Positions 56,295 through 64,000 of a stretch of DNA of 64,000 nt are shown piece after piece. Every line of letters starts with the position of its first letter. The stretch's first letter is position 1. The notes under the pieces are model-generated. The model saw only the letters and a program-made list of their open reading frames with translations, did not search any database and was not told where the DNA came from. The DNA is from Chitinophaga lutea (lineage in GTDB: Bacteria > Bacteroidota > Bacteroidia > Chitinophagales > Chitinophagaceae), in assembly GCF_003813775.1 (NCBI RefSeq), contig NZ_RPDH01000001.1, positions 1,054,001-1,118,000 of the forward strand. Reading direction: 5' to 3'. A program made the translations under genes and the position numbers.

Positions 56295-57815
56295 TCAGAG
56301 GTTGAACTGAATCCCCTGTGCCAGTGGCAGTCGGGTTCCATAGTTAATCGTGTTGGTTTGTCGTCTCATGTAAGCTTTCCAGGCATCGCTGCCGCTTTCT
56401 CGGCCGCCGCCGGTTTCTTTTTCCCCGCCGAAGGCTCCGCCGATCTCGGCCCCGGAGGTGCCGATGTTCACATTGGCGATACCGCAGTCGCTGCCGGCGG
56501 CCGACAGGAAATATTCCGCTTCGCGCAGGTCCATCGTCATGATGGCGGAAGAAAGACCCTGCGGCACGTCGTTCTGCATCGCCACCGCTTCTTCCAGCGT
56601 ACTGTACTTCATCAGGTACAGGATGGGGGCGAAGGTTTCCGTCTGCACTACCGGGAACTGCGGCTGTACTTCCGCGATGCAGGGTTTTACATAACAACCG
56701 CTTTCGTACCCCTGCCCTTCCAGTACGCCGCCTTCCACGAGGAAGCGGCCGCCCTGTTCACGGCAGGCGGCAATGGCCCGCAGGTAAGTATCCACCGCCG
56801 CTTTATCGATCAGCGGTCCCACGTGGTTCGCCTCATCGAGCGGATTGCCGATCCGGAGCTGGCCATACGCATGTACCAGCTTATCGCGAAAGCGGTCGTA
56901 AACATCTTCGTGAATGATGAGGCGGCGTGTGGTGGTGCAACGTTGCCCGGCCGTTCCGGCTGCGCCGAATACACTGCCGATCAGCGCCATATCGAGGTCG
57001 GCGTTTTTGGAAACAATGATCGCGTTGTTGCCGCCCAGTTCCAGCAGGCTGCGACCGAACCTCCCCGCCACGGTAATGCCCACGGCCCTGCCCATCACGG
57101 TGGAGCCGGTGGCCGACACGAGCGGCACTCTCTCATCCGCAGCTAATAATCTCCCTGTTTCCGCGCCCCCGTTGATCAGGCAGCTGACGCCTTCCGGCAC
57201 GTTGTTCCGTTGCAGCACGCCGGCGATAATGTGCTGGCAGGCGACGGCGGACAACGGCGTTTTTTCACTGGGCTTCCACACGCACACGTTCCCGCAAACC
57301 ATCGCCAGCATCGCATTCCAGCTCCATACCGCCACGGGGAAGTTAAATGCGGAAATGATGCCCACAATCCCCAGCGGATGCCATTGCTCGTACATGCGGT
57401 GCTGCGGGCGTTCGCTATGCATCGTGAGCCCGTACAACTGGCGGCTCAGGCCCACGGCAAAATCACAGATGTCGATCATCTCCTGTACTTCACCCAAACC
57501 TTCCTGCAGGCTTTTGCCCATTTCAAAGCTCACGAGCCGGCCCAGCGCCTGTTTTTTTTCGCGCAGCGCTTCCCCGATCTGCCTAACCACTTCTCCCCGC
57601 TGCGGCGCAGGTACGGTGCGCCAATGCTCAAACGCTTTGGCAGCCGTCAGGATCACGGCTTCATAAGCGGGCGCGTCCGTAGCGGTGACGGTCGCGATCT
57701 GTTGCCCGTCGACAGGTGAAAACGAAACGATCTCCCCGCCGCCCGGCAGCCATGCTGCGCCGGTGCTGACGCCGGGGTTCTGTGGCAAAATGCCCAACTC
57801 CTTTAAAAAATCCAT
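56295..57815 (-). CDS. ALDH7-family aldehyde dehydrogenase (2-aminoadipate-6-semialdehyde dehydrogenase-like)
   Basis: This 506-residue cytosolic NAD(P)+-dependent enzyme oxidises an amino-aldehyde. The wording of the catalytic region, FGAAGTAGQRCTTTRRL (catalytic Cys293), and of the C-terminal GGEKETGGGRESGSDAWKAYMRR is that of the antiquitin (ALDH7A1) subfamily, whose main substrate is 2-aminoadipate 6-semialdehyde. The general base Glu259 is in LLELGG. It is the last gene of the operon; its ATG overlaps the DUF1338 stop by one base. Product 2-aminoadipate would then need transamination to 2-oxoadipate, the substrate of the DUF1338 enzyme. No aminotransferase for that step is in the window. 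Confidence 0.9.
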   Translation of the reverse strand: MDFLKELGILPQNPGVSTGAAWLPGGGEIVSFSPVDGQQIATVTATDAPAYEAVILTAAKAFEHWRTVPAPQRGEVVRQIGEALREKKQALGRLVSFEMGKSLQEGLGEVQEMIDICDFAVGLSRQLYGLTMHSERPQHRMYEQWHPLGIVGIISAFNFPVAVWSWNAMLAMVCGNVCVWKPSEKTPLSAVACQHIIAGVLQRNNVPEGVSCLINGGAETGRLLAADERVPLVSATGSTVMGRAVGITVAGRFGRSLLELGGNNAIIVSKNADLDMALIGSVFGAAGTAGQRCTTTRRLIIHEDVYDRFRDKLVHAYGQLRIGNPLDEANHVGPLIDKAAVDTYLRAIAACREQGGRFLVEGGVLEGQGYESGCYVKPCIAEVQPQFPVVQTETFAPILYLMKYSTLEEAVAMQNDVPQGLSSAIMTMDLREAEYFLSAAGSDCGIANVNIGTSGAEIGGAFGGEKETGGGRESGSDAWKAYMRRQTNTINYGTRLPLAQGIQFNL

Positions 57816-58708
57816 TATCTTTTGTTGGTTTGTGATGAATAGGTGCTTTCAAATATTTTGTCGGCATTCGCGGCCTCAAAACCTTCTCTCCGGTGTACCC
57901 GTTTGATGGCGGCAGGATCCAGGTGACTGAATTCCGGCAATACTCTACGCTCCGCAAACTCCACATACGAGCCTGCAATAGCGTGTTTTTCACCGCCGGC
58001 AAATTCCGCTTCGATCATACCGGCCACCGTAGAGCTCTGCAGCAACAGCCCATCCGGACTCTTCTTGAATTTCCCGCCGGCATCGTTCAGCTGCAGGCCC
58101 TGCTTTTCGAGGAAATCGTTGAACCGGCCGATCTCGTTGTAACCGGCCGGCAGGTTGTGTACACTGATGGTGAAGTGATTGAGATAATAACTGTTGTAGA
58201 TGGCCCATGATGCGTATTCGCTTACACCGGCCAGTACTGTATAATCACGGTAGGAAGGCGTACGCCAGAGGCCACTGTGCAGGAACGCATCCACGGCCGC
58301 CACATCATCGAGGTCGAGTTGCAGCACGGGGTCGGCGGTCACTTCGCTGGTGTAATTGTGGATCATGTCGCGCGTGGCGGCCGGCAGGTCTTTTACCCGC
58401 AGCTCGCTGATGAAAATACGCGGCAGCGACGGCTCGGGCGGTGCATACCAGTAAGCGTCCAGCCGCTTTTCCGCAAAATAGTAGTAGTCCTTTTTAATGT
58501 ACCCGTGGTGCAGGAAAATCTTTTCGAGCGACTGGATCCCGAGATGCGGAACGCCCATTGTCCGGAAAGCGATGTGGTCGTTTTCGATGTCGTCCGCGCG
58601 CCGGATGAGGCCTTCCGCGATCATGGCGGATATCACTTTTTCCACATCCGGCACCCTTTCTTTGTAACGGCGCATCAGGCCGTCGAGTATCAATTGCAGC
58701 TTGTTCAT
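57815..58708 (-). CDS. DUF1338 protein, 2-oxoadipate dioxygenase/decarboxylase (HglS/YdcJ family)
   Basis: HglS-type enzymes are non-haem Fe(II) VOC-superfamily dioxygenases that convert 2-oxoadipate to D-2-hydroxyglutarate and CO2 in lysine catabolism. The 297-residue protein is shorter than Pseudomonas HglS but keeps the site: HIAFR (His45 and Arg49, metal and carboxylate), LNHFTISV (His178) and YVEFAER (Glu, residue 250 or 253). It lies 14 bp after the kinase/phospho-lyase gene and overlaps the ALDH7 start. A 2-oxoadipate step fits directly downstream of aminoadipate-semialdehyde oxidation, which supports a lysine- or hydroxylysine-degrading pathway. Confidence 0.88.
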   Translation of the reverse strand: MNKLQLILDGLMRRYKERVPDVEKVISAMIAEGLIRRADDIENDHIAFRTMGVPHLGIQSLEKIFLHHGYIKKDYYYFAEKRLDAYWYAPPEPSLPRIFISELRVKDLPAATRDMIHNYTSEVTADPVLQLDLDDVAAVDAFLHSGLWRTPSYRDYTVLAGVSEYASWAIYNSYYLNHFTISVHNLPAGYNEIGRFNDFLEKQGLQLNDAGGKFKKSPDGLLLQSSTVAGMIEAEFAGGEKHAIAGSYVEFAERRVLPEFSHLDPAAIKRVHRREGFEAANADKIFESTYSSQTNKR

Positions 58709-62917: not shown

Positions 62918-64000
62918 TTTACAGCCGGGCGAAGGGTGAACGAATAACTGTAATCCGTGTAAGGCAGGATGTATTCCGCATGCGGCGTGGCGCCCCAGCT
63001 GTTGTCGCCGCCTACGCCCATCTGTTTATCATCGATGTTCCACCATACCAGGTCTTCATTCGTCATGGAGCCGCCGTGATTGTTTTCTTTGGCGTGCCGG
63101 TCGAATTCGAGGCGGTCCATGTCAAAGTGCAGCACACCGGTACAGATCAATGGACTGCCGGCAGCCGTCAGGCCGATGCCATTTGCATTCGCCAGTGTCA
63201 TCCACCGTACGTCCGTTCTGTAGCCGCTTTCCTGCGCACGGGGGTAAGGATGGAACAACCGGTCCGCCTTCATGCTGTACACATCCACAGCAGCAGCCGT
63301 ATTCCTGTCTGCATAATTGTCAAAGGGCCCGCGGCCCAGCCAGGTCACCTGGTCGAACGCGCCATGCAGCAGCATGCGCATCCCGAAACGCGGCAATTCG
63401 GGCAAACGCCCGCTGCCGGTTTTCATCGCTACGGTCACGTTGATGATTCCCCCGGATGTGATCGTATAGGTTGCCATGTAAACAGCCTTCACAGCCGGCA
63501 GCACATGCCGGGTGCGGACCGTCACCTGTCCCTTGGCGTCTTTGTGTACCTGTATGGAATCCAGCCGCGCGGTTTTCACTACATCTTTCCATACGGCGCA
63601 CCGCATCTGCTGGCTGTTGCCGATATCGTTGTCGGTCGCGGCGCGCCAGAAATGCGGTTCCAGCGCGGATTTCATAACAGGCGTCCCTTTCCAGGCATAT
63701 GCGCTCAGCCAGCCGGTCTGTTTGCTGAAAACGATATCGGCATCGCCGTCGGAAATCTTTACCTGCTGCCGGTCTTCCTGTACCGTTAATTGATTGGTCC
63801 CAGTCACTGCAGGCAGGGTTGCCTGAGCAACCGGCAGCGGAAACTGTTCCCACGCCACGAGGTGTTGCGCCGGTATGGCAGGTGTAGCGTAACGTGTCCT
63901 GGCTTCGAGCGTCAGGAAATATTCCGCACCCGGAACCGCTTCGAACCGGGGCAGCGGCAATGCAATGATTTTGCTGGCATGCGGCGCAAGGGCACCGGCC
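62914..64000 (-). CDS. GH2 beta-galactosidase, C-terminal part (5' end outside window)
   Basis: The frame is open to the window end, so the N-terminal sugar-binding and catalytic TIM-barrel domains lie beyond base 64000. The visible 361 residues are the domain-4/5 region of LacZ-type beta-galactosidases: [58 protein letters not shown] and the closing [19 protein letters not shown]. These are the standard C-terminal motifs. The catalytic glutamates are not in the window. Its stop overlaps the GH63-like start by four bases, so the two are translationally coupled in one operon. Confidence 0.92.

Follow-up and report, generated by a model that had tools for sequence, protein, structure and literature searches.

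A SusCD-type operon of Chitinophaga lutea with a predicted role in the degradation of glucosylgalactosyl-hydroxylysine

Which substrate could bring two glycosidases and a set of lysine-type catabolic genes together in one bacterial operon? This question is raised by a minus-strand gene cluster of Chitinophaga lutea (genome 6.6 Mb) at the end of the window analysed here, a stretch of 64,000 nucleotides (bases 1054001-1118000 of contig NZ_RPDH01000001.1). An original prediction had proposed that five genes of this cluster, encoding a GH2 beta-galactosidase, a GH63-like glycosidase, a fusion of an APH kinase with a class III pyridoxal phosphate (PLP) enzyme, a DUF1338 protein (HglS) and an ALDH7 dehydrogenase, degrade the glucosylgalactosyl-hydroxylysine of collagen. 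Gene content, gene order, catalytic residues, conservation and linkage were read from the sequence. We consider the cluster to be probably a polysaccharide-utilization locus (PUL)-type operon for glucosyl-alpha-1,2-galactosyl-beta-O-5-hydroxylysine (Glc-Gal-Hyl) from a collagen-like protein, with a probability of about 0.82. The proposed function is supported by the linkage of the glycosidase genes with the fusion, by SusC and SusD, and by genes for a D-2-hydroxyglutarate dehydrogenase-like protein and for hydroxyproline breakdown in relatives.

All five genes were found at the proposed places and their families were confirmed. The claimed junctions were also read in the sequence, with ATGA between GH2 and GH63 and then 4 bp, 14 bp and TAATG, and a hairpin followed by seven T was found directly 3' of ALDH7 as the claimed terminator. 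This hairpin was not among the matches of a consensus terminator scan. The gene cluster thus stood as predicted, but GH2 is not its first gene, as SusD and SusC precede it on the same strand. The whole GH2 gene encodes 1029 aa and extends outside the window to L003:3003, where L003 is the stretch past base 64000 in its own numbering. SusC and SusD are adjacent, as in SusCD-type PULs, and the short gaps to GH2 and GH63 downstream suggest that the glycosidases belong to the same transcription unit. The region upstream of base 64000 had been named as a place to look for genes of import, collagenase and aminotransferase. Import genes (SusC and SusD) were found there together with a regulator-like gene, and neither a collagenase nor an aminotransferase gene was present in it.

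The GH63-like protein matches YgjK structures. Its D413 and E603 are conserved in 57/57 homologues and align with D501 and position 727 of YgjK, the latter of which we take to be the catalytic base, so that the catalytic acid and base of the YgjK-type GH63 fold family are both in place. With NCBIfam YgjK (NF007525) it scored 406 bits, below the cut-off of 625, and it does not belong to the YgjK equivalog. Glycosynthase work on YgjK reportedly yielded Glc-alpha-1,2-Gal. The GH2 protein matches beta-galactosidase structures with up to 764 bits and has the full LacZ-type domain set with both catalytic glutamates, presumably E468 and E531 according to the LacZ motif, which are conserved in 25/25 homologues. 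We propose that the GH63-like enzyme is an exported glucosidase taking off the alpha-1,2-linked glucose. Excerpts of PMC7263609 are cited here beside the conserved catalytic residues of GH63 and GH2.

The fusion contains APH kinase and class III PLP domains with their catalytic residues. D200, N205, D218, D221 and K606 were found in 110/110 homologues and H198 in 107/110, and the kinase residues among them are presumed to have the roles known from the APH motif. Human ethanolamine-phosphate phospho-lyase (6tor) matched the lyase half with 474 bits, a bacterial phospholyase (5g4i) with 305 bits and the next enzyme with 184 bits. In the NCBIfam fusion family PRK06148 the protein reached 965 bits, under the curated cut-off of 1128, and falls outside this family. 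We propose that it is a 5-hydroxylysine kinase / 5-phosphohydroxylysine phospho-lyase; the choice between ethanolamine and hydroxylysine cannot be made from the sequence of the lyase half alone.

Based on the family cut-off, ALDH7 is predicted to be a 2-aminoadipate semialdehyde / piperideine-6-carboxylate dehydrogenase. It scored 837 bits with L-piperidine-6-carboxylate dehydrogenase (NF050084, cut-off 730) and about 561 bits with alpha-aminoadipic semialdehyde dehydrogenase structures. HglS aligns with the hydroxyglutarate synthase structure 6w1k and is predicted to convert 2-oxoadipate to D-2-hydroxyglutarate. Its H45, R49, H178 and E250, present in 17/17 homologues, comprise the HHE metal triad and the substrate arginine, with roles taken from excerpts of PMC7286885. 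Many Flavobacterium loci have in addition a gene for a 983-aa protein, which is nearest to the NCBIfam D-2-hydroxyglutarate dehydrogenase YdiJ (559 bits vs a cut-off of 1350); it appears similar to YdiJ and is not assigned to that family. The C. lutea genome has such a YdiJ-like gene elsewhere (60% identity). Second copies of HglS (72% identity) and ALDH7 (76% identity) were observed on contig 2 of the same genome, away from sugar genes.

The compartments were assessed with a simple hydropathy scan of the N-termini, which is not a signal-peptide predictor. A hydrophobic N-terminal segment was found in GH2, GH63, SusC and SusD and not in the fusion or ALDH7. The N-terminus of HglS also scored high (2.03), which we read as a helix. 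Among homologues, the scan was passed by 53/57 GH63, 22/25 GH2 and 33/35 GH42 proteins, and by 6/110 fusion and 5/17 HglS proteins. This pattern agrees with a periplasmic removal of the sugars and a cytoplasmic breakdown of the amino acid. In the pathway that we infer, with every substrate, reaction and compartment predicted, SusC and SusD would take Glc-Gal-Hyl, free or in small peptides, through the outer membrane, and in the periplasm the GH63-like enzyme would remove glucose and GH2 galactose. Hydroxylysine would enter the cytoplasm via a carrier, where the fusion would phosphorylate it and then, by elimination of phosphate and ammonia, form 2-aminoadipate semialdehyde. ALDH7 would oxidise this to 2-aminoadipate, an aminotransferase encoded outside the operon would form 2-oxoadipate, HglS would convert it to D-2-hydroxyglutarate, and the YdiJ-like dehydrogenase encoded elsewhere in the genome would yield 2-oxoglutarate.

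Conservation was determined in 80 loci of named relatives with a fusion homologue, the best of 542 candidates in one scan, a set that therefore favours close relatives; the five nearest to the fusion are all Chitinophaga (82-86% identity). Open reading frames were picked by length, and each was labelled after the seed protein that it hit best in BLAST. A GH63 domain was found near the fusion in 49/80 loci, and all 49 also had a beta-galactosidase. The beta-galactosidase accompanying the fusion is GH2 or, in Flavobacterium, the unrelated GH42, which Pfam and structures place in a beta-galactosidase family; no locus had GH2 and GH42 together. These two families differ, and the same activity is expected of both. 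A separate GH63 gene was present in 48/80 loci, in the order GH2-GH63-fusion (n=16) or GH63-GH42-fusion (n=32). The remaining locus (L062, Flavihumibacter solisilvae), counted as GH2 plus GH63 on Pfam domains, has both in a single open frame of 1646 aa, possibly through a sequencing slip fusing two genes. A beta-galactosidase without GH63 was found at L016, L058 and L071 (GH2) and at L084 (GH42, contig end). Same-strand runs with the fusion included SusC in at least 37, SusD in at least 36, HglS in at least 12, ALDH7 in at least 27 and the YdiJ-like gene in at least 21 of the 80 loci, lower bounds since the fetched flanks end at 10 kb. HglS, ALDH7 or the YdiJ-like gene lay in these flanks in 33 of the 53 sugar-linked loci. 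The original prediction had staked itself on the glycosidase genes being conserved with the lysine-type genes, and this pairing is kept, even through the swap to a non-homologous beta-galactosidase. It spans Chitinophagaceae, Sphingobacteriaceae and Flavobacteriaceae with differing gene orders and beta-galactosidases. In quick trees, which gave long-branch warnings, GH63 (58 rows) formed separate supported groups of 17 GH2-linked Chitinophagaceae-Pedobacter members, 35 of Flavobacterium type including L110, and four of a decarboxylase set described below, and four context labels needed 14 changes on the fusion tree.

We also examined 247 Bacteroidota genomes drawn evenly across the phylum. The fusion or its lyase half (E up to 1e-100) gave 35 matches in 31 of them; 34 neighbourhoods were fetched and 30 were readable, L092, L107, L118 and L119 being excluded as the fusion reading frame was lost. 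Sugar genes stood beside the fusion in four of the 30 (L086, L088, L100 and L110). GH63 (E up to 1e-60) occurred in 7/247 genomes, four of them shared with the fusion (p 0.0055), where GH63 and the fusion always lay in one cluster. HglS (E up to 1e-20) occurred in 11/247, five of them shared (p 0.006), and in four of these five it was at most 10 kb from the fusion. A 4-hydroxyproline epimerase was present in 51/247 genomes, 18/31 with the fusion vs 33/216 others (p 8e-7). These p values assume independence of the 247 genomes, which does not hold. L110 contains GH63-fusion-GH2, SusC and a gene for a tetratricopeptide repeat (TPR) protein 30% identical to that upstream of the C. lutea operon. 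Its fusion is a long form from another clade, with 51% identity in the lyase half, and passes the PRK06148 cut-off with 1152 bits.

The epimerase gene lay within 5 kb of a fusion match in four even-draw genomes (G242, G029, G239 and G085), with the genes in G239 and G085 placed by coordinates after the BLAST-based labels had missed them. Among the named relatives, Flavobacterium taihuense (L013) and F. laiguense (L020) have a full 4-hydroxyproline gene set beside the fusion. One run encodes ornithine-cyclodeaminase-like and 3-hydroxyproline-dehydratase-like proteins, GH63, GH42, the fusion and an M24 peptidase; the opposite strand encodes DPP-like and Xaa-Pro-type peptidases, a D-amino acid dehydrogenase-like protein, 4-hydroxyproline epimerase, an aldehyde dehydrogenase and DapA-like proteins. 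3-Hydroxyproline dehydratase pairs with an ornithine-cyclodeaminase-like reductase. The epimerase alone exceeds its NCBIfam cut-off (592 vs 376), and the dehydratase match reached 376 against a cut-off of 540. Part of the set is also present at L014, and contig 2 of C. lutea itself carries a cluster of 4-hydroxyproline genes.

Three even-draw genomes with GH63 lack the fusion, namely G092 and those of L122 and L123. G092 (L121) has the gene order SusC-SusD-GH2-kinase-decarboxylase-GH63, which was also found in G281, G302 and G317 (L129, L130 and L131), four genomes altogether of 116 of that taxonomic order. The decarboxylase passes the LysA cut-off, and each of the four genomes has one further LysA-family gene elsewhere, so that the cluster copy may be specialised or simply a second LysA. 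This LysA-like route may act on hydroxylysine. The kinase belongs to the APH family, with homoserine kinase as its nearest match at a score under the cut-off. This kinase of L121 was not accepted as an orthologue of the kinase half of the fusion because of the weak likeness (19% identity and E 0.012 one-to-one, nothing with phmmer). The stretch at L122 has GH63 with neither GH2 nor SusCD, so that L122 and L123 place relatives of GH63 in other settings.

Several points weigh against a hydroxylysine operon. None of these proteins has a known activity, their functions being predicted. Sugar genes are lacking at 27 of the 80 named-relative loci and beside the fusion in 26 of the 30 readable even-draw neighbourhoods, and 20 of the 53 sugar-linked loci have none of HglS, ALDH7 and the YdiJ-like gene inside the fetched flanks. 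At five loci that lack sugar genes, 10 neighbouring proteins were sampled; they had no common theme and included a DEAD helicase, RmuC, DUF1501, citrate synthase, peptidase S13 and others. No 2-aminoadipate aminotransferase and no inner-membrane hydroxylysine carrier was identified, and no search was aimed at either. The M9 collagenase profile PF01752 had no match in the C. lutea genome; it matched no control genome either, so its result says nothing. At L123, a sulfatase gene accompanies SusCD-GH2-GH63 and amino-acid genes are lacking, and the two glycosidases may thus act on a different glycan. The SusCD-GH2-GH63 part of the C. lutea operon could likewise be directed at another glucose/galactose glycan, with the lysine-type genes co-transcribed for an unrelated reason, the more so as the linkage specificity of GH63 is a prediction. 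We consider this unlikely, as the pairing of sugar genes and fusion recurs across three families, with differing orders and beta-galactosidases, and with another fusion clade.

The solved enzyme best matching the lyase half uses phosphoethanolamine, and the fusion might act on ethanolamine, as a kinase and then an ethanolamine-phosphate phospho-lyase. However, HglS, ALDH7 and the YdiJ-like protein have no role in ethanolamine breakdown and form a 2-aminoadipate branch, and hydroxyproline genes adjoin the fusion. The human hydroxylysine phospho-lyase is closely related to the ethanolamine enzyme, as cited in excerpts of PMC5200902, and no solved chain of it was among the structure matches of the lyase half. 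Ethanolamine is kept only as a minor and very improbable rival, since the 2-aminoadipate-branch genes and the hydroxyproline neighbours do not fit it. If the substrate is a hydroxylysine glycoside, its origin could still lie outside animal collagen, for instance in collagen-like proteins of sponges or microbes. Environmental Chitinophaga and Flavobacterium make up most of the nearest relatives, and no collagenase was found near the operon. The 3-/4-hydroxyproline genes and proline-specific peptidases of Flavobacterium point to a collagen-type protein and do not tell animal sources apart; we regard another source as rather unlikely.

Few animal proteins are as abundant as collagen, and hydroxylysine is typical of animal collagen. 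The original description of hydroxylysine kinase is said to be in a 2012 paper. In animals, hydroxylysine is degraded by HYKK and PHYKPL, followed by aminoadipate semialdehyde dehydrogenase (excerpts of PMC5200902). The kinase and PLP phospho-lyase families and the expected product, 2-aminoadipate semialdehyde, are the same in C. lutea, whereas the kinase and lyase form one protein here, its gene shares an operon with import and glycosidase genes, and the later steps would go via HglS to D-2-hydroxyglutarate. The collagen glucosidase PGGHG belongs to GH65 (excerpts of PMC8626586 and PMC11012932), unlike the GH63-like, YgjK-type glucosidase proposed here. The latter has the fold family and both catalytic carboxylates in common with E. 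coli YgjK, but lies below its NCBIfam cut-off and in another gene context. The metal triad and substrate arginine of the 2-oxoadipate dioxygenase HglS / FLO7 (excerpts of PMC7286885) are kept, but the gene sits in an operon with glycosidases. SusC, SusD, exported exo-glycosidases and an adjacent regulator-like gene are shared with SusCD polysaccharide-utilization loci, from which the operon differs in also encoding breakdown of the amino-acid aglycone. The single enzymes belong to known families or their fringe, and their assembly as a PUL appears to be what is new. In the titles and abstract openings retrieved from Creative Commons-licensed PubMed Central literature, with subscription papers and PUL databases outside this scope, no such operon or bacterial use of glycosylated hydroxylysine was described.

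With moderate confidence we further suggest that Bacteroidota hold a locus class for glycosylated collagen amino acids. Its SusCD-GH63-beta-galactosidase core would have an interchangeable beta-galactosidase (GH2/GH42) and aglycone route (the fusion, or kinase and LysA-like decarboxylase), in some Flavobacterium joined to 3-/4-hydroxyproline breakdown as a collagen-residue island. If true, the locus would give bacterial enzymes for Glc-Gal-Hyl and Gal-Hyl and a fused hydroxylysine kinase-lyase, make direct genetic testing possible in environmental bacteria that can be cultured, such as Chitinophaga pinensis (L006) and Flavobacterium segetis (L030), which have the cluster, carry the concept of a PUL beyond sugars to sugar-amino-acid conjugates, and serve as a marker of collagen users in genome data.

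Table. Features of the operon, its upstream region and related loci. Positions without prefix refer to the window, those with prefix to the locus named.
Feature	Position	Strand	Remarks
Terminator-like hairpin and seven T	56239..56272	-	fold -18.5 kcal/mol, z -4.79
ALDH7, 506 aa	56295..57815	-	NF050084, PF00171
HglS (DUF1338/HGLS), 297 aa	57815..58708	-	PF07063
APH kinase and class III PLP fusion, 763 aa	58723..61014	-	PF01636 and PF00202
GH63-like glycosidase, 632 aa	61019..62917	-	PF22422 and PF21152 YgjK_N
GH2 beta-galactosidase, C-terminal part	62914..64000	-	LacZ-type GH2 domains
SusD	L003:3069-4640	-	65 bases from GH2
SusC	L003:4612-7731	-	upstream of SusD
TPR-repeat protein, regulator-like	L003:7914-9746	-	upstream of SusC
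Sortilin/Vps10 protein	L003:12058-14835	-	upstream of operon
Second HglS copy	L004:9664-10557	+	contig 2
Second ALDH7 copy	L004:13653-15179	+	contig 2
Flavobacterium hydroxylysine-hydroxyproline island	L013:3662-22284		likewise L020
Sortilin/Vps10 protein	L058:12298-15177	-	adjoins fusion
GH2 and GH63 domains in one frame	L062:5056-9996	+	Flavihumibacter solisilvae
SusCD-GH2-GH63 and sulfatase	L123:2073-16794	-	

In Pfam the regulator-like TPR protein matched TPR families only, plus a weak DUF2225 match. By eye its C-terminus resembles a LuxR-type helix-turn-helix, with no Pfam match to that. A single match (E up to 1e-60) was found in 7/13 related-locus genomes, always directly upstream of the cluster, and none at this threshold in the other 6/13. 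Other regulator genes were a LysR gene adjoining HglS in L055, L103 and L106 and an Lrp-type gene at L032. Farther upstream of the operon, C. lutea encodes a Sortilin/Vps10 protein of secreted type that also has ricin-B lectin and Por sorting domains, and another Sortilin/Vps10 protein is encoded next to the fusion in L058.

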